This document shows positions 2,677 to 31,222 of a stretch of 33,735 nucleotides of DNA, piece by piece. The stretch comes from an uncultured Clostridia bacterium. Its GTDB lineage: Bacteria; Bacillota; Limnochordia; Darwinibacteriales; Darwinibacteriaceae. The notes under the pieces are model-generated. The model worked only from the letters and a program-made list of their open reading frames with translations. It had not been told where the DNA came from and ran no database searches. The stretch is taken from the NCBI GenBank assembly GCA_900018335.1, contig FIZK01000007.1:1-33735 (forward strand), given 5' to 3'. Made by a program: the position numbers and the translations under genes. Numbering within the stretch: the first letter of the stretch is position 1; every line of letters starts with the position of its first letter.

Positions 2677-2681
2677 GTGAG

Positions 2682-3650: not shown

Positions 3651-3666
3651 CTACAGTGAAAAGGAA

Positions 3667-12950: not shown

Positions 12951-12964
12951 TGTGAACGATTACA
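12951..12964 (+). promoter_or_regulatory. LacI-family/cre-like operator
   Basis: TGTGAACGATTACA is a near-palindrome with the central CG typical of LacI/GalR and CcpA sites, matching the cre consensus at all but one position. It sits at the expected transcription start, so bound repressor would block the operon at 13044. It is the reverse complement of the site at 22478 with one difference. Confidence 0.65.
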
Positions 12965-13043: not shown

Positions 13044-14027
13044 ATGAAAGCGGTACAGTCAGCAGCGGTAGGTGGACGATTATTACAGAATAGAAGGTTG
13101 CGCGCTCAGCTGCTCCTCTTTTCTGGCATTATTTTGGTTTACCTAATTTTTAACGGCGTCTTGGACGGGAGGCTCTTAACGGCCACCAATCTGAGGATTA
13201 TCTTGTCGCACGCCGTGTTCCCCGCGCTGGTTGCCTGGGGTATGAGCTTCTTCTTTTCCACCGGTATTATCGATCTCTCAGTGGGTTCCAACATCATCTT
13301 GTCCGCCAACGTGGGCTGTTATCTGGCTACACGGCTTAACCTGGGCATGCCGGGACTGATTGTGGGGACGATCCTCACCTGCATGCTGCTCCAGCATCTC
13401 AATATTCGGGCCATCATTGATTTGGAAATACCTTCGTGGATCGCTGGTTTGGGCGCTGCACTGGTCTATGAGGCCATCACAGCCCAGTATATGTATACAC
13501 AAAACATCATGGCGCTGGATCTGCCCAACAAGTATCGGCCCCTAGGCAACATGCCTTACTTAGGGATCGTCTACTTCGCGGCCTTTGCTGTGGCTTATTT
13601 TCTATCTAACCGTACCACCGTCGGTCTGAACATCAAAGCTTTGGGCGGTAACCAGCAGGTGGCTGGCTCAATGGGTATTGACCGCAAGAAGACCGTAATT
13701 ATCGGGGCACTCATTGGGGCGGCTTTCATTGGTATGGGTGCCGTGATTCAAATATCCTATGCCGGCCGCGTTTACGCCACAACGGGGTTAGGCAGTCTCG
13801 CTTCGATTTTCCAGGCCCTGGCCTGTGTCCTGTTGTCGGGCTCCATAGCCAGTATTCTCTCGCCTCCGGTGGGCATTCTGGTATCCTCATTCTTTGTCGT
13901 AAGCATTTTCAACGTGCTGACGATGCTGGGAGTCCCCTCAGGCACAGGTCAGGACATTTTCTTAGGCGTCATTGTAGTTGTCTGCGGCATTCTGTCCCAC
14001 TTAAGACATAAGGGTGTGGTTAAATGA
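13044..14027 (+). CDS. Sugar ABC transporter permease, RbsC-like (first of two)
   Basis: This 327-aa multi-spanning permease belongs to the ribose/xylose-type ABC importers (the BPD_transp_2 type, without an EAA loop of the MalFG kind). About eight or more hydrophobic segments cover the protein; the stretch DLSVGSNIILSANVG near residues 78-92 corresponds to the family's conserved first half. ATG 13044 is chosen because GGGGG lies 6 bases before it and because longer frames would start inside the promoter and operator. It heads the operon. It is followed by the binding protein, the ATPase and a second, different permease, so the channel is probably a heterodimer. The intergenic gap after it carries a second copy of the operator. 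Confidence 0.9.
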   Translation: MKAVQSAAVGGRLLQNRRLRAQLLLFSGIILVYLIFNGVLDGRLLTATNLRIILSHAVFPALVAWGMSFFFSTGIIDLSVGSNIILSANVGCYLATRLNLGMPGLIVGTILTCMLLQHLNIRAIIDLEIPSWIAGLGAALVYEAITAQYMYTQNIMALDLPNKYRPLGNMPYLGIVYFAAFAVAYFLSNRTTVGLNIKALGGNQQVAGSMGIDRKKTVIIGALIGAAFIGMGAVIQISYAGRVYATTGLGSLASIFQALACVLLSGSIASILSPPVGILVSSFFVVSIFNVLTMLGVPSGTGQDIFLGVIVVVCGILSHLRHKGVVK

Positions 14028-14152: not shown

Positions 14153-15280
14153 ATGCGACTGAAGAACACTGCATTGCTGCTGGTCCTCATTCTAAGCTTG
14201 GCCTTGTCTCCGACAGTCCTCGCCGCCGGACACAAAATTGGCTACAACTATTTCGGCAACGCGGGCGTGCTGATCACCCTGGCCAACAACTCCAAGTATG
14301 TTATCGAAGCCTTCGGCGGCACTGCCGTCTCCGTTGACAACCAGTTCAGCGTGGACAAGATCGTCACTGACCTGGAGAACCTCATTGCTTCCGGTGTGGA
14401 CGGACTGCTCGTATGGGCCCCCACTCCAACCCTCTATCCGGTCATCAGCCAAATGTGCCTGGAAGCCGGCGTGCCTTTTGTTCTCAACGACAAGGTTCCC
14501 ATGGAGCCCGAACTGAGGGCAATGCTCAGGATGAACCCCTACTTCGTCGGCGGCGTTGCTCCAACCAATGCTGATTACGGCCGTGCACTTGGTGAGTATG
14601 TGGTGGCCAAGGGCTACAAAACCTGTATCGTGAACACCTCTCAGCCTGGCGACCCCAGCGACGAGCCCAGACTGGCTGCATTTAGAGAAGTATACGAAGC
14701 TAACGGTGGAGTAATTCTGGATATCGTTCGCTCCTCTGGAACAGATGGCGGCAAATCCCAAGTTGAGAACTCCCTCATCGCTCACCAGAATCCTGATTTC
14801 ATCTACGGTGTAGGTCCCTCCTTTGCCATCGGTGCTATCCAGGCCCTGGAGAGGTACGACTATGATACAACTGTAGTTACCTCTGGTCTGGAAGAAGCTG
14901 TTTTGGACCTGCTCGCAGAAGGCAAGATCGAGGTTGCCAATGGCGACAACTGGATCTGCGGCACCCTGTCCGCACTGATGCTCCAGAGCTACCTGGACGG
15001 CAATCCGCTGCGTGATGAAAACGGTGAGGCCCCAATCATTGATACGGTTGGTTTCTACGAAGTAACCGCTGAGCAAGTTGAGCTGTACAAGCGCTTCTTC
15101 ATCGAGGAACATCCCTATTCCGTTGAAGAAATCCTGTCCTTTAGCGGCCCCGACTTTGACTTCGCCGCTTTCATGGAGCTGATCGAAAACTACACCCTCG
15201 AGAACAGAATGGCAGCCAAAGCCCGTGAGGGTAAGGTAACCATCGAAGAACTGAAAGCTGTAGGCATTAACGTCCAGTAG
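14153..15280 (+). CDS. Periplasmic sugar-binding protein, RbsB-like
   Basis: This 375-aa substrate-binding protein of the ribose-type ABC importer has a signal peptide (MRLKNTALL..., cleavage near VLA-AGH, residue 24-25) and no lipobox cysteine. The mature part follows the two-lobe periplasmic binding protein (type 1, Peripla_BP_4-like) pattern: an early strand (GHKIGYNYFG), the SGVDGLLVWAPTP turn at about 82-94, then DPSDEPRLAAF and the second lobe. The sugar is not predictable from sequence. An AGGAGGAG ribosome binding site precedes the ATG by about 10 bases. It is followed by a 179-base gap containing an operator-like site and a strong stem-loop, a common arrangement that leaves the binding protein more abundant than the rest of the transporter. 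Confidence 0.9.
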   Translation: MRLKNTALLLVLILSLALSPTVLAAGHKIGYNYFGNAGVLITLANNSKYVIEAFGGTAVSVDNQFSVDKIVTDLENLIASGVDGLLVWAPTPTLYPVISQMCLEAGVPFVLNDKVPMEPELRAMLRMNPYFVGGVAPTNADYGRALGEYVVAKGYKTCIVNTSQPGDPSDEPRLAAFREVYEANGGVILDIVRSSGTDGGKSQVENSLIAHQNPDFIYGVGPSFAIGAIQALERYDYDTTVVTSGLEEAVLDLLAEGKIEVANGDNWICGTLSALMLQSYLDGNPLRDENGEAPIIDTVGFYEVTAEQVELYKRFFIEEHPYSVEEILSFSGPDFDFAAFMELIENYTLENRMAAKAREGKVTIEELKAVGINVQ

Positions 15281-15434: not shown

Positions 15435-15476
15435 TTTCCAAGTGTTTTGTGAAAGAAGATGTCGAGGGGTGACCAC

Positions 15477-16991
15477 ATGACGGACAGCAATCTATTCGTG
15501 GTAAAAAATGTGAGCAAAAGGTTCGGTGCCACGCTTGCCAACAACAATGTGAGCTTAACCATTAAAAAGGGCGAGATCCGTGGCTTGGCCGGCGAGAATG
15601 GTTCCGGTAAATCGACCCTGTGCTCGATTATCTGCGGAATACACCAGAAGGACGAAGGTTCCATGCACAAGTGGGGTCAACCATATGCGCCGACCTCGCC
15701 CATCGATGCCAACTCCAAAGGAGTGGCCATGGTTGTGCAGGAGTTGGGGATCATCGAAACCCTGTCGGTGGCGGAGAACATTTTCCTAGGTAAAACTGCC
15801 CAGTTTACCAAGCGCGGTCTGCTCAGTGTGGAACAGATGAACAAGGCAGCTGCCCAGGAACTGAAAAAATGGGGTCTGGATGACATAGATGCTCATACCA
15901 AAGCGGGCCAGCTCTCCATTGAGCAGAGGAAGCTGGTGGAGCTGGTGCGGGCCTTGTCTGTAAATCCCGAGGTTCTGATTCTAGACGAAATTTCTCAGGC
16001 CTTGTCCCATGACAAGCGTGAGCTGTTGTACCGCCTGATCGATAAATGTACTGACCTGGGCATGACTATCATTGTTGTCACCCACGACATCCATGAGATG
16101 CTCGAATTGACAGACTCCATCACAGTTTTGCGTGACGGCAGTGTTGTGGGCACAGTTGAGAGTAAGGATTTAACCGAGTCGGAACTCAAACGCATGATGG
16201 TAGGGCGAGAGCTGAGTGAGAGCCTGTATCGCAATGACGAACAAGAAAACCAGGGCGGAGAAGTGGTGCTGTCCGTCAGTCAGCTCAGCGATGCCAAATT
16301 GCGCGATATATCGTTTGAACTGCGTCGAGGAGAAATCCTGGCTGTGTGCGGCCTCAGTGATGGCGGCACCCATGAGCTGGGCGAAGCTATTTTTGGAATT
16401 AGGGAGAACAGAACCGGTTCTGTAGTTGCCAACGTATCTGGGAAACAGCTGAACAAGCCCATTGATGTGATCAAGAACAGGGGCGCTTATGTTCCCAAAG
16501 ACAGGGACGATCACGGCTTGATGCTCAATGCCAGTGTCCGGGATAACCTCCTGGTTCCCTCCGCAAGGCGTTTGGCGGCTTTGAAAAACGCCTTTGGTTT
16601 CATCGCTCCCAAGCGGGTCAGGGCGCTAACCAAAGAAGCGGTTGACACCATGTCCATCAAGACCCATGACGCCAACATTCAGAAAGTTGGCAGTCTCAGT
16701 GGCGGGAACAAACAGAAGGTCAGCTTGGCGAAATGGCTGGTGCAGAATCTGGATTTCCTCATCCTGGATTGCCCCACCCGCGGCGTGGATGTGGGCGTGA
16801 AGGGCTATATCTATGAAAAGATGCTGGAAGCGACAAAAGAAGGTCTGGCAATCCTCATGATCACTGAAGAACTGGCGGAAGCCATTGGCATGGCAGATCG
16901 CATCCTCGTGCTCAAAGACGGAGCGGCAGTCAGAACCTTCACCAGAAGTGAAGGCTTTACCGAAGAGAAGATAGTTGAGGTGATGATGTAG
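15477..16991 (+). CDS. Sugar ABC transporter ATP-binding protein, RbsA-like double ATPase
   Basis: This 504-aa cytoplasmic ATPase has two fused nucleotide-binding domains that power the ribose-type importer. Domain 1 has a full Walker A (GENGSGKST, 39-47), the signature QLSIEQRK and Walker B VLILDE. Domain 2 lacks a Walker A lysine (CGLSDGGTHE), as in other RbsA-like proteins, but keeps the signature LSGGNKQKV. Its Walker B reads LILDCPTRGVDVG, with Cys432 where a catalytic Glu is usual. ATG 15477 is preferred over ATG 15459, since GAGGGG lies 7 bases before it. The stop overlaps the start of the second permease by one base. One intact and one degenerate ATP site are expected. Confidence 0.93.
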   Translation: MTDSNLFVVKNVSKRFGATLANNNVSLTIKKGEIRGLAGENGSGKSTLCSIICGIHQKDEGSMHKWGQPYAPTSPIDANSKGVAMVVQELGIIETLSVAENIFLGKTAQFTKRGLLSVEQMNKAAAQELKKWGLDDIDAHTKAGQLSIEQRKLVELVRALSVNPEVLILDEISQALSHDKRELLYRLIDKCTDLGMTIIVVTHDIHEMLELTDSITVLRDGSVVGTVESKDLTESELKRMMVGRELSESLYRNDEQENQGGEVVLSVSQLSDAKLRDISFELRRGEILAVCGLSDGGTHELGEAIFGIRENRTGSVVANVSGKQLNKPIDVIKNRGAYVPKDRDDHGLMLNASVRDNLLVPSARRLAALKNAFGFIAPKRVRALTKEAVDTMSIKTHDANIQKVGSLSGGNKQKVSLAKWLVQNLDFLILDCPTRGVDVGVKGYIYEKMLEATKEGLAILMITEELAEAIGMADRILVLKDGAAVRTFTRSEGFTEEKIVEVMM

Positions 16992-17953
16992 TGTTGAGGA
17001 AAATCGACAAGAGTCTGCTCATGTCAGTGGTCATCCTGGTCCTAGTCCTCGTGGTATTTCAGATCACCACTAAAGGCAACTTGCTCACCAAGCGCAATCT
17101 GTTGAACATCATCAACCAATCCCTCACCACGGCCATTGCTGGCCTGGGCCTGATCTTTGTTGCGGCCATGGGGGGAACGAACATCACCGCCGGAGTTGTG
17201 GCTGCCACTGCGGGCGTGATTGCGGTAACAGTGGCCCGAACCGCCTTTGCCTTGACTTTTCCCGCGGCCATGGCCGTTGGTCTGCTCTTCGGTCTGTTCT
17301 TGGGATTTGTCAACGCAGTGTTCAAAGTCCCATCCTTCATGGCTTCTTTGGCCATCTTGATTGCAGGCAGGGCTGCCTTTGTCTGGTACGTGAGCAGCCG
17401 GATTATTTTTGCCCCCATGGATATTTTGGCCCTGAACAAACTGGAGTACAAAATACCCATCCTGGCGTTGTTGACAATACTCATTGGTTATATTCTGGAA
17501 TACACTCCCTTCGGAAACTACGTCAAGGCCATCGGTGAGAACGAGAATGCCGTTAAATTCATGGGCATCAACGTACGGCGCTACAAGATCTGGGCTTACG
17601 CCCTTTCAGGCATCATGTTTGGTATTGCCGGCATTTTCCTCATCGCGCGCAGCGGTGGAGCCAGCCATACCATGGGTACCGGAATGGAAATGCAGGTGAT
17701 GATGGCCCTGTTTATCGGCGGCGTTCCTGTACAGGGTGGTACTGGTACTAGAATCTTCAAGCTGCTCTTCGGCGCTCCCCTCATTGTCCTTCTGGAGAAC
17801 GGCCTTGTACTCAGCGGCACATCTGGCCCCATGACTCAGCTCGTCAAGGGCCTGGCCCTGCTGGCCATCGTCTACCTGTCTGTGCGCTTGAACAAAGTGG
17901 AGCGGCTGCGTGAACCAAAGGAGCAATTGGCAAGCAGCCCGGGGCTATCTTGA
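16991..17953 (+). CDS. Sugar ABC transporter permease, RbsC-like (second of two)
   Basis: This 320-aa membrane permease of the ribose-type ABC family has eight to ten hydrophobic segments. It carries the family's typical VPSFMASLAILIAGRA segment (about 107-122) and ends the transport half of the operon. GTG 16991 overlaps the ATPase stop (TAGTG), with GAGGTGATG as the ribosome binding site. Its sequence differs clearly from the first permease, so the two probably form a heterodimeric channel with the double ATPase. Only 12 bases separate it from the first DUF6379 gene, which ties the transporter to the downstream deglycosidase-like genes and suggests it imports their substrate. Confidence 0.92.
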   Translation: MLRKIDKSLLMSVVILVLVLVVFQITTKGNLLTKRNLLNIINQSLTTAIAGLGLIFVAAMGGTNITAGVVAATAGVIAVTVARTAFALTFPAAMAVGLLFGLFLGFVNAVFKVPSFMASLAILIAGRAAFVWYVSSRIIFAPMDILALNKLEYKIPILALLTILIGYILEYTPFGNYVKAIGENENAVKFMGINVRRYKIWAYALSGIMFGIAGIFLIARSGGASHTMGTGMEMQVMMALFIGGVPVQGGTGTRIFKLLFGAPLIVLLENGLVLSGTSGPMTQLVKGLALLAIVYLSVRLNKVERLREPKEQLASSPGLS

Positions 17954-17965
17954 AAGGGGAGTTAA

Positions 17966-18409
17966 ATGGCACAGTTTCAGTCCTATAACAAGATCCTGGT
18001 TTGCCAAGAGGATGGCATCAGCAACATTGTGGTTAATGGGCAGGTTGTGGCCTATGAACTGAAGTGCAGATACCCTTCCTACCGAGGAACGTATCTGAGC
18101 TGCATTGAAGCTCTGGAGCTCTACGTTGACGGCGCTAGGGTGGAGGATGAGCGCATTAGCCTCCACCTTAACGGCAAGATTTTCCCCATTTCTCAGCTGA
18201 AGGAACTCTTCAGTGAGTATTGGTTCATCCTGGACAAAGGTACTCTGCGAATCTGGCAGCCCGGCGGACTTGCAGAAGGGGAGCACACTGTGGAGATCAG
18301 GATGAGGCACCGCATCCCCTACACGGGCTATTTTGGAGAATATCTAGTTCTGGACAGCAGAGATGAGAAGCAGTTGGAAGTCTTAAGGGGGGTGGAGCTG
18401 GATGGCTAA
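17966..18409 (+). CDS. DUF6379-type protein, candidate C-glycoside deglycosidase beta subunit (pair 1)
   Basis: This small 147-aa cytoplasmic protein is predicted to be all beta. It shares with the other two small proteins here the motifs YRGTYLS, a VDG turn, LNGKIF and GGLAEGEHTVEI, plus a C-terminal R-x-PY stretch. This pattern fits DUF6379, the beta subunit of C-glycoside deglycosidases such as DfgB and CarB, which assembles with a TIM-barrel alpha subunit and helps shape the active site. GGGGAG precedes the ATG. The last 8 bases overlap the start of the TIM-barrel gene, the coupling expected for two subunits made in equal amounts. Family assignment is from recalled motifs, not a search. 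Confidence 0.75.
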   Translation: MAQFQSYNKILVCQEDGISNIVVNGQVVAYELKCRYPSYRGTYLSCIEALELYVDGARVEDERISLHLNGKIFPISQLKELFSEYWFILDKGTLRIWQPGGLAEGEHTVEIRMRHRIPYTGYFGEYLVLDSRDEKQLEVLRGVELDG

Positions 18410-19355
18410 AGCCTACAAACCTGCGATCACACTGTACAGTTTTTCCGCTGAGTACATCACTGGTAAGCTCAGTTTGGAGGATTGCCTGAGGGAAGCCAGG
18501 GACATGGGTTTTGAAGCCGTGGAACTTGTGGCTTCGCAAATGGTGCCCGAGTATCCTTATCCGAGCGACGCCTGGATTGAGCACTTCAAGGAACTGTTAG
18601 CCCGCTATGAGCTGGAGCCCCTGTGCTACAGCGCCTATATTGACATGGGTATCCGCAGCGATCGTGATCTCACGGAAGAAGAGATCTTCCACTCCACCCT
18701 CAACGACATGCTCTATGCCCGGCGGCTGGGCTTCAAGTTCGTCCGCAGCCAGCATGCCATTTCTCCTGCCATCTTCAAGCGCATGCAGCCCTACTGCGAG
18801 CAGTTGGGAGTGAAGCTGTCCATTGAAATGCATGCTCCCCATCACCCAGATGTTCCCGTCTGGCAGGAGTATCTGGCCATCATGGAGGAGAGCAACGGCC
18901 AGTTGGGTGTGGTTCCCGACTTTGGCATTTTCGCGGAGCGGCCCCACGAACTGCTGCTGCTCCAGGCCGTTGAGGATTTCGGCTGTCGCCGGGAGAAAGT
19001 AGACCTGATCGTGCAGCACTTCAGCGAAGGCTTGCCCCAAAGCGATCTGGACCGCTTTGAGCTGAGCACTGCCGAGCAGAATTTCGCCGAGGAAGTGTAC
19101 AAGAATCACGGCCCGGCCCAATTGGAGTGGCTGGATCGTCTGGTCCCCCATTCCTTCCACATGCATGGGAAGTTCTGGTATCTGAAAGATGATCAGGATG
19201 ATTCCGGCATTCCCTACAAGAAGCTCCTGCAGCGCCTCAGCGAACTGGGATACAGCGGCTACATTGCTTGCGAGTATGAGGGGCACCATTTTCGGGATGA
19301 TATAGATGTTAAGGACCAACTGCAGAAGTTTGTCCGCTTACTGAACAGCATTTAG
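18402..19355 (+). CDS. TIM-barrel sugar isomerase-like protein, candidate deglycosidase alpha subunit (pair 1)
   Basis: This 317-aa protein of the xylose isomerase-like TIM-barrel superfamily (AP endonuclease 2 fold) carries the likely divalent-metal ligands E142 (IEMHAP, with H144 two residues on), D173 (PDFG), H255 (HMHGKF) and E291 or E293 (EYEGH). Relatives in C-glycoside deglycosidases (DgpC, DfgA, CarC) use such a metal centre to cleave the C-C bond of a 3-keto-C-glycoside. The alternative is a 3-keto-sugar isomerase/epimerase. The start overlaps the upstream DUF6379 gene by 8 bases. The N-terminus (ITLYSFSAEY) is shared with the other barrels here and with the partial gene at 33350. 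Confidence 0.8.
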   Translation: MAKAYKPAITLYSFSAEYITGKLSLEDCLREARDMGFEAVELVASQMVPEYPYPSDAWIEHFKELLARYELEPLCYSAYIDMGIRSDRDLTEEEIFHSTLNDMLYARRLGFKFVRSQHAISPAIFKRMQPYCEQLGVKLSIEMHAPHHPDVPVWQEYLAIMEESNGQLGVVPDFGIFAERPHELLLLQAVEDFGCRREKVDLIVQHFSEGLPQSDLDRFELSTAEQNFAEEVYKNHGPAQLEWLDRLVPHSFHMHGKFWYLKDDQDDSGIPYKKLLQRLSELGYSGYIACEYEGHHFRDDIDVKDQLQKFVRLLNSI

Positions 19356-19398
19356 CCCCGGCCATCCCGGGCAACATAGATAGATAGGGAGTGAGCTT

Positions 19399-19836
19399 AT
19401 GGGTCTGCAGATGAGGATCCACCTCAGGGACATTCTACAGAAAAACTCGCTGAGGAACTACTACTTAAGGGGGCGCGTGGAAGGGTTTCAGTTCGACGTG
19501 CTGCTGGCCAATTACCGCGGGCACTTCTTGTCCACCATTGAGCAACTGGAGGTCAGCATCAACGATCAACCTGTACCCAAAAAGGACATTTTGTTCTGCC
19601 TGAACGGCAAGGAATTCATCGTGGATGACCTGAAGAACCAATCCAATGAGTTCTGGACTATTGCTACACCTGCCACCATTAAGGTGAGAAAGCCTGGCGG
19701 CCTGGAGAAGGGCTCCCACAAAGTTACTCTCACCTTGATACTGCGCAATCCCTACCTGCCCAAACCCGGCAGCACGCAGCCGCATGACTATATTCCGATT
19801 AACAGCTCGGATGAGCAGCACATGGAATTGTGCTGA
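19399..19836 (+). CDS. DUF6379-type protein, candidate deglycosidase beta subunit (pair 2)
   Basis: This 145-aa small protein is a diverged paralogue of the 17966 gene. It keeps NYRGHFLSTIEQLEVSI, LNGKEF and GGLEKGSHKVTL, and ends in RNPYLPKPGS. No signal peptide or membrane segment is seen. It lies 43 bases after the first barrel gene and 19 bases before the next, in the same operon. The role is inferred from the DUF6379 family and its position: non-catalytic or co-catalytic partner of the barrel encoded at 19856. Confidence 0.73.
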   Translation: MGLQMRIHLRDILQKNSLRNYYLRGRVEGFQFDVLLANYRGHFLSTIEQLEVSINDQPVPKKDILFCLNGKEFIVDDLKNQSNEFWTIATPATIKVRKPGGLEKGSHKVTLTLILRNPYLPKPGSTQPHDYIPINSSDEQHMELC

Positions 19837-19855
19837 CTAGATAGGGGGGAACGAC

Positions 19856-20863
19856 TTGGCAGATATTAAACTAGGTGTTACTCTATACAGCTTCACTTAC
19901 GAGTATGTGACCGGCAAATACAGCTTGGAAGACTGTGTCAGGAAGGCCGCCGAACTTGGCGTGGACGGCTACGAGATCGTGGCTACCCAGATGATACCTT
20001 CTTACCCGTATATCAGCGATGAGTTTTTGGCCAAGGTGTCGGAGTTTGAGTACAAGTACGGTATTCGGCCCGTGGCCTATGGCGCCAACACGGATCGCGG
20101 GAAGCTCCACGATCGGGATCTCAACGATGAAGAGCTGGTGAACGACACCATCCGCGACATTCAAAACGCACATAAGCTAGGCTGCAAGGTGGTGCGGGCC
20201 CAGTATCTCTTGTCGCCGGAGAACCTGGTGCGCATCGCGCCTTACGCCGAAGAGTATGACGTCAAGGTGGGCATTGAGATACATAACCCAGAGACGCCCA
20301 GCACTCCAGCGATGCAGCGTTACTTAGAAGCCATTGAAAAGAGCGGCTCCACCCACATCGGGTTTGTGCCTGATCTGGGCTGCTTTGCCACCAAACCCAA
20401 CATCAAGAACTACGATGGCGCCCTGAAAAAGGGAGCGAACAAGGAGATGCTGGACTACGCGGTTGAGCTCAAGCGCGCCGATGTACCCCTGCGCGAGGCT
20501 GAACAGCGGCTCAAGGACAAGGGAGCAGATCCCCACGTCATGTCTGCCTTTTACGACATGTACGGTTACCTCACGTTCTACAATGAGCCGGACCTGGACG
20601 GACTGCGCCGCATCATGCCTTACGTCTTCCATTTCCACGGCAAGTTCCACGCCATGAGAAATGGGGAAGAGACGAGTATCCCCTATCCTGAGGTCTTGGA
20701 AGCCATTTTCAACACTGACTTTTCCGGCTATATCGTCTCCGAGTATGAAGGCCATTCCTTGAGGGCTGACGGCCTAGTGGATTACGACGCCTTTGAGGCG
20801 GTCCGCCAGCATCTGGAAATGGAGCGCAGGATCCTAGCAGAGCTGGGGCAGAAGCAGAAGTAA
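19856..20863 (+). CDS. TIM-barrel sugar isomerase-like protein, candidate deglycosidase alpha subunit (pair 2)
   Basis: This 335-aa paralogue of the 18402 product keeps the metal-ligand set E141 (IEIHNP, with H143), D173 (PDLG), H261 (HFHGKF) and E296 or E298 (SEYEGH). It starts with TTG 19856, supported by AGGGGGGA five bases upstream and by alignment of its N-terminus (IKLGVTLYSF) with the other barrels. Of the three it most resembles pair 1, but it carries an extra charged segment (about 185-225) that may alter the substrate pocket. Predicted reaction: cleavage or isomerisation of a 3-keto-glycoside. Exact substrate unknown. Confidence 0.8.
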   Translation: MADIKLGVTLYSFTYEYVTGKYSLEDCVRKAAELGVDGYEIVATQMIPSYPYISDEFLAKVSEFEYKYGIRPVAYGANTDRGKLHDRDLNDEELVNDTIRDIQNAHKLGCKVVRAQYLLSPENLVRIAPYAEEYDVKVGIEIHNPETPSTPAMQRYLEAIEKSGSTHIGFVPDLGCFATKPNIKNYDGALKKGANKEMLDYAVELKRADVPLREAEQRLKDKGADPHVMSAFYDMYGYLTFYNEPDLDGLRRIMPYVFHFHGKFHAMRNGEETSIPYPEVLEAIFNTDFSGYIVSEYEGHSLRADGLVDYDAFEAVRQHLEMERRILAELGQKQK

Positions 20864-20877
20864 AGGGAGGAGATTCC

Positions 20878-21273
20878 ATGTATGATAAGCACATTCTAAC
20901 CGACGAAGGTGCGCGCAGCATTTGGGAAGATGGGAAAAAGGTGGGCTATTGCGTCAATCTGAAGATCAACTACTACCGCGGCCTGCCTCTCTGCTGCGTG
21001 GACGAGATTGCCCTCACCGTTGACGGTGAAGAGGTGGATCCGGCCACCATGTACGTACAGCACAACGGCAGAGAGTATCCTTACCTGGAGATTCTCTCCG
21101 ATGATTTCCCCACAGATTTCTACTGGTTGTTTGGGGAGAAACTCCGCGTCGTAGTAAAGAAAGACGGAGGAATCGAGCAGGGGCGGCATAAGGTCAAGGT
21201 AGTCCTGAAGACCCGCCGTTCCTATACACCGACCATGGTGGCGGAATGTGAGAAAGAACTCACCTTCGCGTAA
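20878..21273 (+). CDS. DUF6379-type protein, candidate deglycosidase beta subunit (pair 3)
   Basis: This 131-aa protein is the shortest and most diverged of the three small subunits. It retains YYRGLPL, LTVDGEEV, HNGREY, GGIEQGRHKVKV and a C-terminal RRSYTP stretch. These common positions across otherwise different sequences support one family. GGGAGGAG precedes the ATG. It is 14 bases after the second barrel gene and is followed by the third barrel gene, continuing the beta-alpha order. The function is inferred as for the other pairs. Confidence 0.73.
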   Translation: MYDKHILTDEGARSIWEDGKKVGYCVNLKINYYRGLPLCCVDEIALTVDGEEVDPATMYVQHNGREYPYLEILSDDFPTDFYWLFGEKLRVVVKKDGGIEQGRHKVKVVLKTRRSYTPTMVAECEKELTFA

Positions 21274-21293
21274 GGGTAGAAAGGGTGAAGAGC

Positions 21294-22346
21294 GTGACTA
21301 CAAAGAACTACGATATTAAGCTTGGGGTTTCCCTGTATAGCTATCAGGATAACTACTACTTCCACAAACACGACCTGGAGGGCTGTATAGCCGCGGCTGC
21401 CGGTTCCGGTGCACAGGGAATCGAAGTGTTTGCTGAGATGATGATGCCGGAGTGGCCGTACATATCCGATCGCTTCGTGGACTTGTGGAACGGTTGGATG
21501 CGGCGCTACGGTGTGGAGCCGGTCTGCTTCGATCACTTCTCGGATCGGGGCATGTGGAAGAATAAGCAGCTCACTGATGAGCAGATGGTCGAGCGTGGCA
21601 AGCTGTATATCCGCACGGCCGCCAAGTTGGGCTGCCCCATAGTGCGCGTCCTGCACAATGAACATATTGGGCCCGGCGTCAGCCCGTACCGCTTGACTGA
21701 CGTGAAAATCGTAGAGCAGCTCCTGCCGCTTTGTGCAGAACTGGACATCATGTTGGCTCTGGAGTTGCATGCACCCACCACGCTGGAGGATCCGGCCCAT
21801 CATCAGTACCTGGAAATGGCTGAACGGCTCGGCTTGCCTTACGTAGGCCTGATGGCGGACTTCAGCATGTACGAGTACTGCGCCAGCACCGCCGATGTGG
21901 GTCTGGCCATCCGCCAGGGCGCCACACCGGAGATACTCGAGTTCTACCGGAACAGCCAGAGGGAAGCCTATTTCCGCGGTGAGCCCTTCATCTATGAGGA
22001 AATCGCGGATCAGATTGAGAAACTGAACCCCAATGATGTGGACCGGCGCTTCATAGCCATGCAGAACCGCATGGTCGGTCAGGGGCCGGAGTCCTATGAA
22101 ACCCTCAAGCAGTACGCGTCCTCGCTGGTTTACTGCCACGCCAAGTTTTACGATCTGGATGAAGACGGCCAGGTGGACAACATCGACTACCCGAAGGTAA
22201 TCCAAGCTCTCAAGGACGGGGGCTACAAGGGCTATCTGAGCAGTGAGTTTGAGGGCAACAGGCGCATGAACGATGCCGGCTGGGTGGATGAGATTGAGTA
22301 TGTACGCCGCCATCAGAAGCTGATGCGGGAGTGCTTGGAAAAGTAG
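21294..22346 (+). CDS. TIM-barrel sugar isomerase-like protein, candidate deglycosidase alpha subunit (pair 3)
   Basis: This 350-aa third paralogue has likely metal ligands E157 (LELHAP, with H159), D189 (ADFSMY), H282 (YCHAKF) and E318 or E320 (SEFEGN). It differs from pairs 1 and 2 around three of these motifs: ADFS in place of PDxG, HAKF in place of HGKF, and EFEGN in place of EYEGH. Different stereochemistry or aglycone preference is therefore likely. GTG 21294 is chosen over GTG 21285 because the AAAGGG ribosome binding site has workable spacing only for the former. It is the last gene before the strong terminator at 22356. Confidence 0.8.
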   Translation: MTTKNYDIKLGVSLYSYQDNYYFHKHDLEGCIAAAAGSGAQGIEVFAEMMMPEWPYISDRFVDLWNGWMRRYGVEPVCFDHFSDRGMWKNKQLTDEQMVERGKLYIRTAAKLGCPIVRVLHNEHIGPGVSPYRLTDVKIVEQLLPLCAELDIMLALELHAPTTLEDPAHHQYLEMAERLGLPYVGLMADFSMYEYCASTADVGLAIRQGATPEILEFYRNSQREAYFRGEPFIYEEIADQIEKLNPNDVDRRFIAMQNRMVGQGPESYETLKQYASSLVYCHAKFYDLDEDGQVDNIDYPKVIQALKDGGYKGYLSSEFEGNRRMNDAGWVDEIEYVRRHQKLMRECLEK

Positions 22347-22443: not shown

Positions 22444-22472
22444 TTGCCTAAAAGTGGCTTTTATGTTATAAT
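22444..22472 (+). promoter_or_regulatory. Promoter of the ROK kinase/oxidoreductase operon
   Basis: TTGCCT (22444-22449), a 17-bp spacer and a consensus TATAAT (22467-22472) preceded by TGT (extended -10). The predicted transcription start falls at the first bases of the operator at 22478. Confidence 0.8.
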
Positions 22473-22477
22473 TTGAA

Positions 22478-22491
22478 TGTAATCGTTTACA
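22478..22491 (+). promoter_or_regulatory. LacI-family/cre-type operator, best copy
   Basis: TGTAATCGTTTACA fits the cre/LacI-type consensus TGWAANCGNTNWCA at every position. It overlaps the expected transcription start, so it should repress. It either belongs to a dedicated LacI-family repressor encoded elsewhere or to CcpA. Confidence 0.75.
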
Positions 22492-22517
22492 ACGAAAAAT
22501 GCGAGGTGTACTCATTC

Positions 22518-23426
22518 ATGGGATTTGTGGTAGGAGTGGACTTAGGTGGAACCGCGACCAAGATCGCGGTGTTTAACGAGCAAGGTGAAATCCGCGCATC
22601 CACTCAGATCAAGACGAGAACCGAGGATGGGGGCAAACACATCCTGGGGGACATCGCCAGTGCAGTAAGGGCCGTGTTGAACGAAGAGGCCATTGAACTG
22701 GATGAGCTAGTGGGCATCGGCGTCGGTGTACCCGGCCCGGTTATGGATGGACGCACTGTAACTAGCTGCGTCAACTTGGGCTGGGGTGAAACGGATGTGG
22801 CGAGTTTCCTAGAACGGGAACTGGGCTGCAAATGCCGGATTGGCAACGACGCTAACGTGGCGGCCTTGGGAGAGGCTTGGAAGGGAGCTTCCCGCGACAC
22901 CCATTCTTCAGTGATGATTACCATCGGTACTGGGGTGGGCGGCGGTGTAATCGTTAACGACAGGATCATTACCGGATTCCACGGCGGCGGCGGCGAAGTG
23001 GGTCATTTCCCCATTCACCCAGGGGTTCAAGGCAGGGTGTGCGGCTGCGGCAGCCCGTACTGCCTGGAGGCGTTCACGTCCGCCAACGGTGTGGTCGCGG
23101 ATTATTTAGTTGCCACGGGCAAGAATATGAGCTGTGAAGAGGTCTTTGACGCGGCGAAAAACGGTGAACCTGAGGCCCTGGCCGTGGTGGATAACATGCA
23201 GCGGCTCCTGGGTCAAGCCTGCGCCTTTATCGCCAGCGTTGTTGATCCGGAAGTCTTTGTGATCGGCGGCGGCGTGTCCAAGGCCGGCGAGTTCTTGGCG
23301 GAAGGGATCCGCAAGTATTACGATCACTATGTCTTCAGTTCCATTAAAGGATCGAAGATAGTGTTAGCCGAATTGGGTAATGAGGCTGGCGTATACGGCG
23401 CTGCCAAGCTAGTTTTATCTGATTAA
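22518..23426 (+). CDS. ROK-family sugar kinase (glucokinase-like)
   Basis: This 302-aa cytoplasmic kinase of the ROK family has the phosphate-binding DLGGT (D8-T12), the catalytic D111 in GNDAN, and the ROK zinc site with H163 (EVGH) and Cys175, Cys177 and Cys182 (VCGCGSPYC). No N-terminal DNA-binding domain is present, so it is an enzyme rather than a regulator. ATG 22518 is used, with GAGGTG nine bases upstream. A longer frame from TTG 22473 would be translated out of the operator and is rejected. It heads an operon with a barrel protein and two oxidoreductases, and could phosphorylate glucose or a sugar released by the deglycosidases. Confidence 0.92.
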   Translation: MGFVVGVDLGGTATKIAVFNEQGEIRASTQIKTRTEDGGKHILGDIASAVRAVLNEEAIELDELVGIGVGVPGPVMDGRTVTSCVNLGWGETDVASFLERELGCKCRIGNDANVAALGEAWKGASRDTHSSVMITIGTGVGGGVIVNDRIITGFHGGGGEVGHFPIHPGVQGRVCGCGSPYCLEAFTSANGVVADYLVATGKNMSCEEVFDAAKNGEPEALAVVDNMQRLLGQACAFIASVVDPEVFVIGGGVSKAGEFLAEGIRKYYDHYVFSSIKGSKIVLAELGNEAGVYGAAKLVLSD

Positions 23427-23451
23427 GTAAAGCGTAAAGGAGTTGATGCCA

Positions 23452-24366
23452 TTGAAACTGGGTTTTATCACAGCGATTCTGGACTTTATGAACTTCGAGC
23501 AGGTCATTGACACAGCAGCCAGTTTGGGTTACAGCTGTGTGGAACTGGCTTGCTGGCCGCAGGAGGCGGCGGCCCGGAGATACGCTGGGGTGAGCCATCT
23601 GAACGTGGCCGAGTTGGATGACGCCAAGGCCGCATATGTCAAGGACTACTGCCGGTCTAAAGGTGTGGAGATTTCTTCCCTCGCCTACTATCCCAACAAC
23701 CTCACCGAAGATTTGGAGCAGCGCAAGTATTTCCACGACCACCTGTATAAGGTGATCGAAGCGTCGGCCAAGCTCGGCGTGAATATGGTGACCACCTTTG
23801 TGGGCAGGATGCAGAGCAAGTCCATTGAGGAGAACTTGGAGGAGTTCGCCAAAGTGTGGCCGCCCATTATCAAGTTTGCTGAGGAGCGGGGAGTAAAGAT
23901 AGCCATTGAGAACTGCCCCATGCTCTTTACCCGCGACGAATGGCCGGGTGGACAGAACATCGCTTCCACGCCTGCCAACTGGCGCAAGCTGTTCGAGATC
24001 ATTGACAGCGACTACTTTGGACTCAACTACGATCCGTCCCATTTCATCTGGCTGCAGATGGACTATGTGAAGCCCATGTACGAGTTCAAAGATAAGATTT
24101 TCCACGTCCACTTCAAAGACCTGAAGATCGATTACGATCGTCTGGACGATGTGGGCGTCATGGCCTATCCGCTGGAGTACATGACTCCCAAGATTCCCGG
24201 CCATGGCGATGTGGATTGGGGCAGGTTTGCCTCCGCCCTTTATGACATCGGCTTCAACGGATATGCCTGCGTTGAGGTTGAGGATCGGGCCTTTGAAGGA
24301 AGTCAAGAAAGCGTCTTGAACAGCCTGAGACTGAGCAAGCGCTATCTGGAACAGTTTGTGATCTGA
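23452..24366 (+). CDS. TIM-barrel sugar phosphate isomerase/epimerase-like protein
   Basis: This 304-aa xylose isomerase-like barrel belongs to a different subgroup from the three paired ones and has no small partner gene. Likely metal ligands are E153 (AIENCP), D194 (YDPSH), H220 (HVHFKD) and E275 (VEVED). Proteins of this type beside Gfo/Idh/MocA enzymes often isomerise or epimerise keto-sugars or inositols. The start is uncertain: TTG 23452 has ideal spacing (nine bases) from GGAG, while ATG 23446 is closer. The gene lies 25 bases after the ROK kinase. It may process the keto-sugar formed by its neighbours; this is inference. Confidence 0.85.
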   Translation: MKLGFITAILDFMNFEQVIDTAASLGYSCVELACWPQEAAARRYAGVSHLNVAELDDAKAAYVKDYCRSKGVEISSLAYYPNNLTEDLEQRKYFHDHLYKVIEASAKLGVNMVTTFVGRMQSKSIEENLEEFAKVWPPIIKFAEERGVKIAIENCPMLFTRDEWPGGQNIASTPANWRKLFEIIDSDYFGLNYDPSHFIWLQMDYVKPMYEFKDKIFHVHFKDLKIDYDRLDDVGVMAYPLEYMTPKIPGHGDVDWGRFASALYDIGFNGYACVEVEDRAFEGSQESVLNSLRLSKRYLEQFVI

Positions 24367-24392
24367 AACTAGAACAGTTAGGGGTGAGAGAT

Positions 24393-25454
24393 ATGACAAT
24401 CAAGATGGGAATCCTCGGTTTCGGTTTTATGGGGCACGAGCTGGAGACTCTGCTCTCCACGTTCGAAGAGATTGAACTAGTGGCCCTCTGTGATATCGAA
24501 CCGGAACAGATGGCTGATGCCAAGACGCCCGGCATTGCCAAGTACGAACATATGGACGACTTCTTTGGGCACCCGGGGATGGATACGGTGATCATTGCCA
24601 TTCCCAACCACCTGCACAAAGACGCCGTGATCAAGGCAGCCCAAGCCGGCAAGCACATAATCTGTGAAAAACCGGTGGCCCTCAATTTGCAGGAACTGGA
24701 TGAGATGGAAAAGGCCGTCCAGGAAGCCGGCGTGAAATTTACAGTTCACCACCAGAGAAGGTTCGATCCCGACTATAGAACCGCCAAGGCCATCTTTGAC
24801 AGCCAGGAATTGGGAGACATCTACACCATTCAGAGCATGACCTACGGCTTTAACGGCAATATGCACGACTGGCATGTCTACAAGAAGTTTGGCGGCGGCA
24901 TGCTCTATGACTGGGGAGTACACCTGATCGACCAGGTGCTCTGGATGGTTCCCAGCCCAGTGAAAACAGTCTACGCGGATATCCGCAACGTGATCAACAA
25001 AGAAGTGGACGACTACTTCAAGATCATCCTCCGCTTTGAGAACAACATGGTGGCCGAAGTCGAACTGGGCACCTACTTCTTAGCCGATAAGCCCAAGTGG
25101 TTCGAGCGCCATTGGTTCCTGGGCGGCAACAAGGGCAGCGCCTATATCGACGGCTTCAAGCCCACTGGGAAGATCTGCACAACCTCCGCTCTGTTGGAGA
25201 ATGTGGGGGATAAGCGGACCATGACCGCAGCAGGTCCCACCAGGTCCTTTGGTCCGCCGCCACCGGGAAGGCTGATCACCAAGGATCTGCCCGAGGTGAA
25301 CACCAACCATCGCATGTACTTCGAGAACTTCGTCCGGGCCATGCAGGGGAAAGAAGACCTTCTGGTGACCATCCCCGAGGTGAGAACCACCCTCGCCGTG
25401 ATGGAAGCGGTCTTCAAATCGGGCGAAACCGGCCAAGTCATTACCCTGGGCTAG
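24393..25454 (+). CDS. Gfo/Idh/MocA-family NAD(P)-dependent oxidoreductase (first)
   Basis: This 353-aa sugar dehydrogenase has an N-terminal Rossmann fold (GFGFMG, residues 9-14), the conserved CEKP with K93, and the catalytic pattern D173-WGV-H177-LI-D180. In C-glycoside catabolism the relative DgpA oxidises the sugar at C3 before the deglycosidase acts, so this is a candidate for that step. ATG 24393 is preferred to GTG 24384 because AGGGG lies eight bases upstream of the ATG. It is the third gene of the operon and is followed by a second family member. Oxidation at C3 is inferred, not shown. Confidence 0.92.
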   Translation: MTIKMGILGFGFMGHELETLLSTFEEIELVALCDIEPEQMADAKTPGIAKYEHMDDFFGHPGMDTVIIAIPNHLHKDAVIKAAQAGKHIICEKPVALNLQELDEMEKAVQEAGVKFTVHHQRRFDPDYRTAKAIFDSQELGDIYTIQSMTYGFNGNMHDWHVYKKFGGGMLYDWGVHLIDQVLWMVPSPVKTVYADIRNVINKEVDDYFKIILRFENNMVAEVELGTYFLADKPKWFERHWFLGGNKGSAYIDGFKPTGKICTTSALLENVGDKRTMTAAGPTRSFGPPPPGRLITKDLPEVNTNHRMYFENFVRAMQGKEDLLVTIPEVRTTLAVMEAVFKSGETGQVITLG

Positions 25455-25528: not shown

Positions 25529-26626
25529 ATGAGCAAAAAAATCAAAATCGGAATTATCGGCTGTGGAGGAATTGCCAACCAAAAACACATGCCCGCCCTG
25601 CAAAAGCTGGCTGACGACTGCGAAATGGTAGCCTTCTGCGATATCATTGAGAGCCGCGCCGTGAAGGCAGCCCAAGAGTACGGTGTAGAGGGCGCCAGGG
25701 TGTACACAGACTACAGGGATCTGCTCAAGGAAGAGGAGATTGACGTTGTACACGTCCTCACCCCCAACGTGAGCCATAGTCCCATTACCGTAGCCGCTTT
25801 TGAGGCTGGTAAACATGTCATGTGCGAGAAACCCATGGCCCACAGCACCGAAGCTGCTCAGAAGATGATGGATGCCTGGCGGAAATCGGGCAAGAAGTTC
25901 ACCATCGGCTATCAGAACAGGTTCCGGAATGAAGTCCAGACTCTATATCACTCCTGCCGAAACGGTGAACTGGGCGACGTCTACTTTGCCAAAGCCCATG
26001 CCATCAGGCGCCGTGCCGTTCCCACCTGGGGCGTATTCCAGGACAAGGAAAAACAGGGCGGCGGACCCCTCATTGACATCGGTACCCACGCTCTGGATAT
26101 GACCCTGTGGATGATGGACAACTATGAGGTTGACTCCGTGACCGGTTCCGTCTTCTACAAGATGGGTGACCAGGTCGACGGCAACCTGTTTGGTCCCTGG
26201 GACCCCTCCACTTTCGAAGTAGAAGACTCGGCCTTCGGCTTCATCAAAATGAAAAACGGAGCCACCATCTTCCTGGAAGCATCTTGGGTGCTGAACGTAG
26301 TGGAATCCCGCGAAGCTTCAACCACCCTGTGCGGTACCAAAGCTGGCGCGGAAATCCGCTCCGGTATGAGCTATGCCAAGAATGAGCTTATCTACAACAG
26401 AGTCCTGCACGGCACACCAACTGAAGAACGCAATTCAGCCATGGGCGCAGTAGCCTACTTCGAAGGTTCCCAGGCTGCAGAGGGTATCGTAGAAGCCCGG
26501 CAGTGGATTAACGCTTTGAAGAACGACACTGAACCTCTGGTCAAACCTGAACAGGCGTTTGTAGTTACTCAGATTCTCGAGGCGATTTACCAGTCTCACG
26601 CCCAGGGCAAAGAGATTAAGTTCTAG
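25529..26626 (+). CDS. Gfo/Idh/MocA-family NAD(P)-dependent oxidoreductase (second)
   Basis: This 365-aa second oxidoreductase has the Rossmann motif GCGGIA (11-16), CEKP with K101 and D183-IGT-H187-AL-D190. It is only distantly similar to its neighbour, so the two probably act on different substrates, or one oxidises the glycoside and the other reduces the released keto-sugar. An AGGAGG ribosome binding site lies eight bases before the ATG. The 74-base gap before it shows no clear promoter. It is the last gene before the terminator at 26636. Confidence 0.92.
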   Translation: MSKKIKIGIIGCGGIANQKHMPALQKLADDCEMVAFCDIIESRAVKAAQEYGVEGARVYTDYRDLLKEEEIDVVHVLTPNVSHSPITVAAFEAGKHVMCEKPMAHSTEAAQKMMDAWRKSGKKFTIGYQNRFRNEVQTLYHSCRNGELGDVYFAKAHAIRRRAVPTWGVFQDKEKQGGGPLIDIGTHALDMTLWMMDNYEVDSVTGSVFYKMGDQVDGNLFGPWDPSTFEVEDSAFGFIKMKNGATIFLEASWVLNVVESREASTTLCGTKAGAEIRSGMSYAKNELIYNRVLHGTPTEERNSAMGAVAYFEGSQAAEGIVEARQWINALKNDTEPLVKPEQAFVVTQILEAIYQSHAQGKEIKF

Positions 26627-26663: not shown

Positions 26664-26710
26664 GTCTCATTGTGTGCGCGGCTAATGGATGCGGGGGAGG
26701 GATGGTGAAG

Positions 26711-28345
26711 ATGCTGAACCTGATCATTGTTGACGACGAGTATCATGCTTTGCAGGCCATCAAGACCGCGGTGGATTGGCAAGAACTAGGCATCTCCCAT
26801 GTGTTTGAGGCCGCAAACATCAAAGAGGCCAAGAACATCTTCCGCGCACACCCAGTGCATCTCATGCTGTGTGACATCGAAATGCCCCAAGGCAGTGGCT
26901 TGGATCTGTTGGCCTGGGTACGGGAGAGGTACCCTGCCGTGAGGTGCGTTTTCCTCACCTGTCATGCGGAGTTCGCCTACGCCCAAAGGGCCATTGAGCT
27001 GGGCAGCACAGAATACATCCTTAAGCCCGTTGCTGGGCAGCGGCTCAAGGAAGCAGTTCTCAAGGCCATGGGTGAGGTGAAGGCGGATCGGCTCGTGGAA
27101 CGGGGGCAGCTGTGGCTCAAGCAGCAACCCCTGTTTGTGGAGCACTTTTGGTTTGACGTGATCAAAGGGAGAATTCCGCCCAGCAAAGATGCGCTGCAGG
27201 AAGCAGCCCAGGCGCGGGGGATTACCTACGACCTGACGGGGAAGTTTGTGCCCGTCCTGCTCAGTTTGGAAGAGGTGGGCACCACCGAATCCCTGGAAGA
27301 ACTGCGGCGGAGTCTCTGGCAGCTGGCCCGGGAGATCATCGTGGGTACAAGTGTTGGGGGAAGCATGGTCCAGCTCAGCGGCGAGTTGGCCCTGGCCCTG
27401 GCGGAGCAGGATCCGAAAACGGTCAAGTCCCACTGCCACCTGTTCATTAAGGAGGCCCAAGAGCGGTTCCAAGCCCAGCTTTCCTGCTATGTGGGTGTGG
27501 AAACAGCCCCCCACAAACTGGCAGTGGCCGTTGGAGATCTCATCCGGATCAGGGAACACAGCGTGGCCCCGAAGGGTCAGGTGTTTCTGCTGGAGCGGGC
27601 GGTGAGGCAGGCTGATGGTCCGAAACCGCCAATTCACCTGCCAGATGCGGAGCTCTGGTTGACGCTGCTGGAACAGCGCGACCCGCAGCGCCTTGTCGCG
27701 GAAGCCCGCAAGTACCTGGAACACACCATGGAGACAACAGGCCTCGATACCCATGCCCTCTACGTTTTCCAGCAGGATTTCCTGCAGCTATTCTATTACG
27801 TGTTGAGAAACAAGGGGGTCCAGGCCCACCAGCTGTTCCAAGGTGAAGAAACGGTGGAACTCCAGAAACGGTCCACCCGCTCCCTGGACGATTTGCTCCA
27901 ATGGCTGGAGCACATTGTGGGCGAGTTCAAAAAGCAGTGCCAGGAGTCCATGTCCGTTGTGGAACAGGTGCGGCTTTATATTGCCCAGAACATCAACGAC
28001 GTGAACATCACTTGTAAGGAAATCGCCGATTACGTTGGTTACAACCCCGACTACCTGAACCGCATTTTCAGAGACAGGACCGGACTCACCATCGTGCAGT
28101 ACCTGGTGCAGGAGCGGATGGAAATGGCTAAGAAGTTGCTGGTGCGTACTGATATGCAGATCAGCAGCGTGGCCTCACAGGTTGGCTACACTAACTTCTC
28201 CTATTTCGCCAAGGTCTTCAAGGGCTACACAAACATGACTCCCAGTGAGTATCGCCGGGCGCTGCGGGCCAGCCTGGCGGGGAAACGGCTCATGGACGCC
28301 TTCTCCTCCCCTGGGGGAGGCGGAGGAATGAGCAGCGGTGCCTAG
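26711..28345 (+). CDS. Response regulator, YesN type (receiver plus AraC helix-turn-helix)
   Basis: This 544-aa transcription regulator has an N-terminal receiver domain with the acidic pair D8/D9, the phosphoacceptor D55 (CDIEMP), T83 and K105 (LKPV). A long middle region of unclear fold follows, then a C-terminal AraC/XylS double helix-turn-helix (from about residue 425; KEIADYVGYNPDYLNRIF and the end motif MTPSEYRR). ATG 26711 is chosen because GGAGG is nine bases upstream; ATG 26702 and GTG 26672 lie too close to the ribosome binding site or the terminator. It overlaps the kinase gene by 8 bases. Regulators of this family usually control the adjacent LplBC-type importer. Confidence 0.93.
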   Translation: MLNLIIVDDEYHALQAIKTAVDWQELGISHVFEAANIKEAKNIFRAHPVHLMLCDIEMPQGSGLDLLAWVRERYPAVRCVFLTCHAEFAYAQRAIELGSTEYILKPVAGQRLKEAVLKAMGEVKADRLVERGQLWLKQQPLFVEHFWFDVIKGRIPPSKDALQEAAQARGITYDLTGKFVPVLLSLEEVGTTESLEELRRSLWQLAREIIVGTSVGGSMVQLSGELALALAEQDPKTVKSHCHLFIKEAQERFQAQLSCYVGVETAPHKLAVAVGDLIRIREHSVAPKGQVFLLERAVRQADGPKPPIHLPDAELWLTLLEQRDPQRLVAEARKYLEHTMETTGLDTHALYVFQQDFLQLFYYVLRNKGVQAHQLFQGEETVELQKRSTRSLDDLLQWLEHIVGEFKKQCQESMSVVEQVRLYIAQNINDVNITCKEIADYVGYNPDYLNRIFRDRTGLTIVQYLVQERMEMAKKLLVRTDMQISSVASQVGYTNFSYFAKVFKGYTNMTPSEYRRALRASLAGKRLMDAFSSPGGGGGMSSGA

Positions 28346-30077: not shown

Positions 30078-30079
30078 CT

Positions 30080-30118
30080 AAGAACCGCCTTCTAGCCCTT
30101 AGAGGATCGCGGTTCTTT
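30080..30118 (+). terminator. Terminator after the histidine kinase gene
   Basis: The 9-bp arms AAGAACCGC and GCGGTTCTT enclose a 20-base loop; the distal arm runs into TTCTTT. It starts 3 bases after the kinase stop codon. Confidence 0.75.
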
Positions 30119-30138
30119 GCTTTCTGCCTTTATGTCGT

Positions 30139-30232
30139 AATAATGCTAACAAATAGTCGCCTAAATGGTAGTAAGCCCATAACCACGTATTATATTATTT
30201 AACCAAGCAGTATGCTGCACCAATAATGCTAA
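30139..30232 (+). promoter_or_regulatory. AT-rich regulatory region with direct repeat AATAATGCTAA
   Basis: The 11-base sequence AATAATGCTAA occurs at 30139-30149 and again at 30222-30232, 83 bp apart, either side of an AT-rich stretch that could hold a -10 box (TATATT, 30191-30196). No good -35 is seen, as expected for an activator-dependent promoter. The YesN-like regulator is the natural candidate to bind here. Confidence 0.4.
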
Positions 30233-30248
30233 ACGGAAGAGTGGTATT

Positions 30249-31187: not shown

Positions 31188-31222
31188 GCTGGTAATCAGG
31201 GATTGGGGAAGGAAGGTTCAGG

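Follow-up and report, generated by a model that had tools for sequence, protein, structure and literature searches.

A candidate two-operon locus for aryl C-glucoside use: three tandem C-glycoside deglycosidase pairs behind a CUT2-type importer in an uncultured Clostridia bacterium

Gene content of the locus

The stretch of DNA considered here (the window; 33,735 nt, positions 1 to 33,735 of contig FIZK01000007.1 from an uncultured Clostridia bacterium) carries an unbroken run of six genes at 17966-22346, in which three small β subunits and three TIM-barrel α subunits of the C-glycoside deglycosidase (CGD) family alternate in the order B1-A1-B2-A2-B3-A3 (Table 1). A preliminary description had placed these genes as closely spaced pairs directly behind an ABC importer, and this layout was borne out for all six open reading frames (ORFs). 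Specifically, B1 and A1 overlap by 8 bases, the remaining gaps measure 43, 19, 14 and 11 bases, and the last importer gene ends 12 bases upstream of B1. Judged by its domains (a Peripla_BP_4 binding protein, a fused double ATPase and two BPD_transp_2 permeases), the four-gene importer is of the CUT2 type; its first permease most likely starts at ATG 13044 and not at TTG 12912, the residues MKAVQSAA being conserved in a related locus (L018, described below). A second operon of four genes follows A3.

Table 1. Positions of the genes and candidate regulatory sites in the window.
Feature	Position	Strand	Remarks
Operator-like palindrome TGTGAACGATTACA	12951..12964	.	Leader of importer/CGD operon
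CUT2 permease 1	13044..14027	+	BPD_transp_2; ORF open from 12912
CUT2 substrate-binding protein	14153..15280	+	Peripla_BP_4, 81.7 bits
CUT2 double ATPase	15459..16991	+	Two ABC_tran stretches
CUT2 permease 2	16991..17953	+	BPD_transp_2, 106 bits
B1	17966..18409	+	CGD β subunit, pair 1; PF19906, 108.5 bits
A1	18402..19355	+	CGD α subunit, pair 1; best solved relative DgpC (7xrf/7bvr), E 3e-63
B2	19399..19836	+	CGD β subunit, pair 2, DgpB type; PF19906, 119.7 bits; 47% to DgpB
A2	19856..20863	+	CGD α subunit, pair 2, DgpC type; 369 bits to W974-1 DgpC2 (9m3a), 354 to DgpC
B3	20878..21273	+	CGD β subunit, pair 3; PF19906, 95.0 bits
A3	21285..22346	+	CGD α subunit, pair 3; lid combined with long loop; 37.6% to the Deinococcus aerius enzyme
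Promoter-like TTGCCT-17-TATAAT	22444..22472	+	Before second operon; top score of scan, 10/12 matches; consensus match only
ROK sugar kinase, probably glucokinase	22473..23426	+	Likely start ATG 22519; ROK 243 bits; ROK_glcA 235 bits (cut-off 260)
Operator-like palindrome TGTAATCGTTTACA	22478..22491	.	Just after promoter-like site; exact LacI/CcpA-type consensus match
Single-subunit TIM barrel, putative 2-hydroxy-3-keto-glucal hydratase	23443..24366	+	8ro4 hydratase, E 5e-6
Gfo/Idh/MocA 3-dehydrogenase, DgpA2 type	24384..25454	+	443 bits to P581a DgpA2 solved with isoorientin (9m37)
DgpA orthologue, C-glycoside 3-dehydrogenase	25529..26626	+	577.5 bits to DgpA (7xr9)

Family, pairing and classes of the three pairs

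The three small proteins belong to PF19906, which Pfam names 'C-glycoside deglycosidase beta subunit' (CGDB) and whose PDB entries carry the name DUF6379. Their scores of 95-120 bits, against a cut-off of 27.6 bits, are far beyond chance, and the DUF6379 membership proposed earlier thus holds for each of them. Of 398 genomes sampled from the phylum, just four carry the family, and a literature search on DUF6379 turned up no paper. The barrels match the broad Pfam family AP_endonuc_2. Among solved structures they give strong E-values to CGDs alone, down to 1e-109, isomerase- and epimerase-type chains scoring 1e-4 or weaker. The AlphaFold model of B3 has a predicted local distance difference test (pLDDT) score of 92, and all 17 of its matches at E<=0.001 in a fold search of the PDB are CGD chains; for A3 (pLDDT 88), the first 16 matches are CGD chains, ahead of the first isomerase or epimerase type. 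By sequence and by fold, then, CGDs rank above ordinary epimerases as relatives of the barrels.

With respect to catalysis, seven α-subunit residues have been shown to be important for cleaving the C-C bond, namely the metal ligands E147, D179, H269, K271 and E305 and the catalytic residues H149 and E307, numbered as in AgCGD2 (Mori et al. 2021, PMC8563793). All seven (EHDHKEE) are kept in A1, A2 and A3, as they are in DgpC, DfgA and DaCGD and in nearly all of 90 α subunits, and AgCGD2 is concordant at the positions displayed in the alignment. The motifs E-x-H, D, H-x-KF and E-[YF]-E-G, previously noted in the barrels, recur in all three, as do YRG, NG[KR] and GG-x3-G-x-H-x-V in the small proteins. 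The Tyr of YRG is position 39 in DgpB, and Tyr39 of the β subunit has been assigned an oxyanion role (Bitter et al. 2023, PMC10628242); this residue is present in B1, B2 and B3 and in 76 of 78 β subunits. As far as sequence and predicted fold can tell, B1-B3 and A1-A3 are β and α subunits of the CGD family.

Pairing of the subunits was assessed across 80 named dgpA loci and relatives (85 β genes including the window, which was left out of the pairing itself). An α gene adjoins 79 of the 85 β genes, with an unambiguous B-A order in 54 cases and A-B in 23, and distances in the α and β trees correlate with r=0.767 in a mirror-tree analysis, the maximum over 2000 permutations being 0.145. Within the window, the correlation peaks in every row and column at the adjacent combinations, B1A1 (0.80), B2A2 (0.86) and B3A3 (0.45), which supports their assignment as three predicted cognate heteromers.

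The three barrels fall in different parts of the α tree (IQ-TREE; supports given as approximate likelihood ratio test/ultrafast bootstrap, aLRT/UFBoot). A2 lies within the clade of DgpC and W974-1 DgpC2 (99.6/97; 51-52% identity), a placement by which pair 2 is of the DgpBC (C8-glucoside) type. A1, which is 33% identical to DgpC, belongs to an eight-member clade (100/100) that contains none of the included solved enzymes, and we know of no characterized enzyme within it. A3 groups with three homologues, from L018 and two other genomes (100/100), while its grouping with the Deinococcus aerius enzyme is weak (81.5/84; 37.6% identity). Recent tandem duplication of the pairs is ruled out by these three separate clades and by the mutual identity of the barrels, which is about 26-36%.

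A survey of 81 α subunits for the lid domain and the active-site loop found a lid with a short loop in 63, no lid and a long loop in 14 (the EuCGD type), and both elements in four. The latter four are the A3-type proteins, with lid segments of 93-111 residues and loops of 27-33; the loop of A3 itself has 27 residues, and A1 and A2 combine a lid with a short loop. In the A3 model the lid segment contains four helices and loop residues 126-136 are of low confidence, recalling, respectively, PuCGD, with its lid of four helices, and EuCGD, in which the loop is disordered (PMC8563793). Pair 3, by alignment and model, is an uncharacterized class that joins a lid domain with a long loop otherwise confined to lidless enzymes. 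Position 303, at which a Tyr keeps out C6-glucosides according to docking in PuCGD (PMC8563793), is occupied by His in both A1 and A2 and by Asn in A3.

Preference for C6 versus C8 linkages in the solved enzymes has been explained by the lid, the loop and residue 303, the elements that give the aglycone pocket its shape (PMC8563793). Because selectivity is for C8 in the DgpBC type and for C6 in EuCGD (PMC8563793), it is plausible that the three pairs differ in substrate preference. The preliminary description had proposed three deglycosidases with different preferences; the separate clades and differing lid, loop and 303 states favor this indirectly, although the difference in substrate is one that we infer rather than demonstrate.

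Importer linkage, conservation and the second operon

For comparison with other loci, a sample was chosen through dgpA with 10-kb flanks (~20-kb loci). A two-subunit lyase occurs in 59 of the 80 sampled dgpA loci, and three of them (L028, L043 and L044) hold three CGD pairs each. In addition, a Clostridiales metagenome-assembled genome (G446, DUNO01) carries 14 CGDB genes on contigs C14, C34, C43, C48, C52 and C55, six of which cluster in some 34 kb of C48, making it the richest of 39 genomes searched by locus. A three-pair locus is thus not unique. Within this sample, the window and L018 alone show the unbroken B-A-B-A-B-A run preceded by an importer. The novelty implied by the earlier remark, that no described operon with three pairs and its own importer was known, must be softened, since multi-pair and importer-linked CGD loci exist elsewhere. 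The enzyme type itself is known; its packaging, two uncharacterized enzyme branches and the linked importer are sufficiently new to merit testing.

A homologous CUT2 importer is present in four of seven loci of the A1-type clade, as opposed to one of the 52 other CGD-bearing loci of the named set (Fisher p = 0.0004, a value that serves as a guide only, the comparison having been devised after the overlap was noticed). One of the seven, L028, was omitted from the final tree for its aberrant α fragment. Moreover, both A3-type genes found outside the window and L018 lie directly behind a homologous importer, in the orders binding protein-permease-ATPase-permease-DgpA2-B3-A3 (L116) and importer-B3-A3-DgpA (L119), and the window binding protein is 51% identical to a protein adjoining CGD genes in Treponema (L070). 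Linkage of this kind is not peculiar to the window, as seven loci attest (L029, L034, L070, L087, L092, L116 and L119). The importer probably belongs to the CGD system, for which the L116 and L119 arrangements are the best evidence, although they do not fix the imported molecule. This linkage and the A3 class are the points most worth testing.

The related locus L018 (contig C33 of genome G013, from another genus of the same family) matches the window gene for gene over a block of 14, order included, at 75-92% protein identity. Approximate ratios of nonsynonymous to synonymous substitution (dN/dS) between it and the window are 0.025-0.13 for all 14 genes, clearly below 1, and the genes are under purifying selection. 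Beyond them, L018 carries a fourth pair of the DfgAB type in A-B order (L018:13982-16612; 358 bits to the EuCGD type) and a LacI-family regulator; in the window, this position is taken by a two-component system.

In terms of regulation, the palindrome TGTGAACGATTACA is identical and similarly placed in L018 (L018:323-336), and near-matches to TGTAANCGNTTACA number only four in the 1.79-Mb genome, two of them within this locus. The related TGTAATCGTTTACA stands before the second operon, so that an operator motif precedes both. From these sites we infer a repressor of the LacI or CcpA type. The LacI regulator of L018 was considered for this role and ruled out, its best match in the window's own genome being just 32% identical, and a search for the motif in the importer-linked loci L116, L119, L092 and L034 gave no convincing site.

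The second operon would supply the rest of the pathway. Of the 80 named loci, 40 have a homologue of its hydratase-like barrel next to dgpA and 43 a homologue of its DgpA2-type enzyme, and a paralogue 81% identical to the putative hydratase occurs elsewhere in the same genome (G000:C83:7190-8101). A scheme of oxidation, elimination, hydration and reduction has been proposed for the PUE operon and others (Bitter et al., PMC10628242), and the gene content of the window appears to fit this route. DgpA takes 3-oxo-glucose as hydride acceptor (PMC11239390), a transfer by which the redox loop would be closed.

Several further features were noted in passing. The same genome (G000) has another CGD pair between a preceding DgpA-like Gfo enzyme (33%) and a second importer of the CUT2 type (G000:C19; L016:4480-13868), and a near-identical copy of this pair and Gfo gene is found in G010 (L019); a fifth pair lies on the short contig G000:C56 (L017:1046-2564). 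Firmicutes bacterium UBA3914 (L023) has an 87% identical dgpA and an 80% identical hydratase homologue beside a different CUT2-type importer, with no CGD pair within the 14.5 kb covered. In the window, GH32 and PfkB sugar-use genes and then a chemoreceptor with a CZB zinc-binding domain occupy 1249-5465, and the minus strand at 5626-6897 encodes a 423-residue protein with a C-terminal rhodanese domain, the first ~320 residues of which are without a match in Pfam/NCBIfam. Downstream of dgpA are a response regulator with AraC output and a histidine kinase, then two BPD_transp_1 permeases without an adjoining binding protein (26672-32113), and a major facilitator superfamily transporter (32159-33316).

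Proposed function and comparison with known systems

We consider it likely, with a probability of roughly 0.8, that the two operons serve the import and full use of aryl C-glucosides, and probably of some O-glucosides too. In the proposed route, the CUT2 importer would take up the intact glycoside, and DgpA and the DgpA2-like enzyme would oxidize its sugar at C3. One of the three α-β lyases, selected by aglycone and by C6 or C8 linkage, would then bind the 3-keto sugar at its Mn site (E/D/H/K/E), where the lyase His would abstract H-2 while Tyr39 of the β subunit helps to hold the phenolate, releasing the aglycone and 2-hydroxy-3-keto-glucal. Hydration of the glucal by the single-subunit barrel would give 3-keto-glucose, which the DgpA-type enzymes could reduce to glucose with regeneration of their bound NAD+, and the ROK kinase would phosphorylate the product.

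A number of points weigh against this proposal. The binding protein is without a close match to any characterized family, so the importer could instead take up an O-glycoside or a sugar that has been released. Assignment of the hydratase is putative, drawn from a weak match (E 5e-6 to 8ro4) and gene context, and co-evolution of subunits is no proof of a physical α-β complex. Finally, dS exceeds 1 for every gene, leaving the dN/dS values approximate, and the operator of the ROK operon, TGTAATCGTTTACA, was not found at the corresponding place in L018.

A more ambitious version is tentative, and we would put it at somewhat under even odds: B3A3 may represent a third structural class of CGD, with a lid and a long mobile loop, regularly found beside a CUT2 importer of intact C-glycosides, such that importer, oxidases and three specialist lyases could form one complete system that takes plant compounds of mixed C6 and C8 linkage from uptake to glucose.

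Of the competing explanations, the most durable, if still unlikely, is that of a generalist 3-keto-glycoside lyase locus whose pairs mainly cut plant O-glucosides, or O- and C-glucosides alike, with C-glycosides a minor substrate. PuCGE accepts 3-keto O- and C-glycosides, O-glycosides are far commoner in plants (PMC10628242), and D3dgpA oxidizes both kinds (PMC11239390). However, the two-subunit CGD with its β Tyr39 is held to be an adaptation to C-C cleavage, single-subunit eliminases sufficing for O-glycosides (PMC10628242), and the two-subunit lyase is present in the majority of the sampled dgpA loci, as counted above. That the pairs differ by sugar (glucoside, arabinoside or glucuronide) instead of by aglycone or C6/C8 linkage has a small chance of being correct: position 303 and the lid and loop differ and nothing presented here fixes the sugar, yet these same elements shape the aglycone pocket in solved enzymes (PMC8563793) and the ROK kinase is glucokinase-like. 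Smaller again is the chance that the pairs are redundant copies that raise gene dosage for one substrate. Their shared catalytic residues and single operon would suit such a role, but recent duplicates would be alike, whereas these barrels are divergent members of three supported clades, differ in lid, loop and residue 303, and are each under purifying selection. That the barrels are ordinary sugar epimerases lying by chance beside DUF6379 genes, as the breadth of AP_endonuc_2 might allow, is scarcely credible given how far CGDs outrank epimerases in the structure searches.

C-C glycosidic bonds withstand the usual glycosidases, and what becomes of plant C-glycosides in gut and soil is decided by how these bonds are broken down. 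The locus brings together three natural candidates with matched subunits for the study of substrate choice, along with a candidate dedicated C-glycoside importer and an uncharacterized lid-plus-loop enzyme class. 3-Keto-C-glycoside lyases can reportedly also run in reverse to make C-glycosides (PMC13273386).

Among known systems, A3 resembles EuCGD/DfgAB of Eubacterium cellulosolvens (PDB 7bvs) as an α-β lyase with a long active-site loop, but EuCGD has no lid. The nearest solved relative of A3, the C-glucosyl deglycosidase of Deinococcus aerius (PDB 8qvc, 8umc), has a lid-sized segment and lacks the 27-residue loop. A2 is closest to DgpC2 of the W974-1 DgpB2/C2 enzyme, and the second dehydrogenase to DgpA2 of P581a, a strain also represented by DgpB1/C1 (PDB 9m3a, 9m3b and 9m37; the first two released in 2026-03). 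Nothing among these enzymes closely matches pairs 1 and 3. The numbering suggests that W974-1 and P581a have several copies; a literature search gave no publication on either the 9m3x structures or the enzyme of D. aerius. Catenibacillus scindens and C. decagia are reported to carry multiple CGD pairs in one genome (four and six, respectively), which were proposed to widen substrate range; in C. scindens dgpA does not adjoin dgpBC, and the portion of that source at hand holds no tandem three-pair run with an importer (PMC11170127). The O-glycoside pathway of Agrobacterium tumefaciens (AtOGE/AtHYD) shares the logic of four steps, and likewise has a Gfo reductase and a hydratase barrel of one subunit; it differs in using a flavoenzyme as oxidase and, as lyase, a single-subunit O-glycoside eliminase with no sequence relationship to the CGDs (PMC10628242). 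Finally, the DgpA-DgpBC puerarin operon of the intestinal strain PUE (PuCGD; PDB 7bvr, 7exz, 7xrf) shares with the window a DgpA orthologue (577 bits), the subunits of pair 2 (α 51%, β 47%) and the same catalytic residues. Where PuCGD has the C6-blocking Tyr at position 303, A2 has His, and where one pair has been described in PUE, the window combines three with a CUT2 importer and a ROK kinase.

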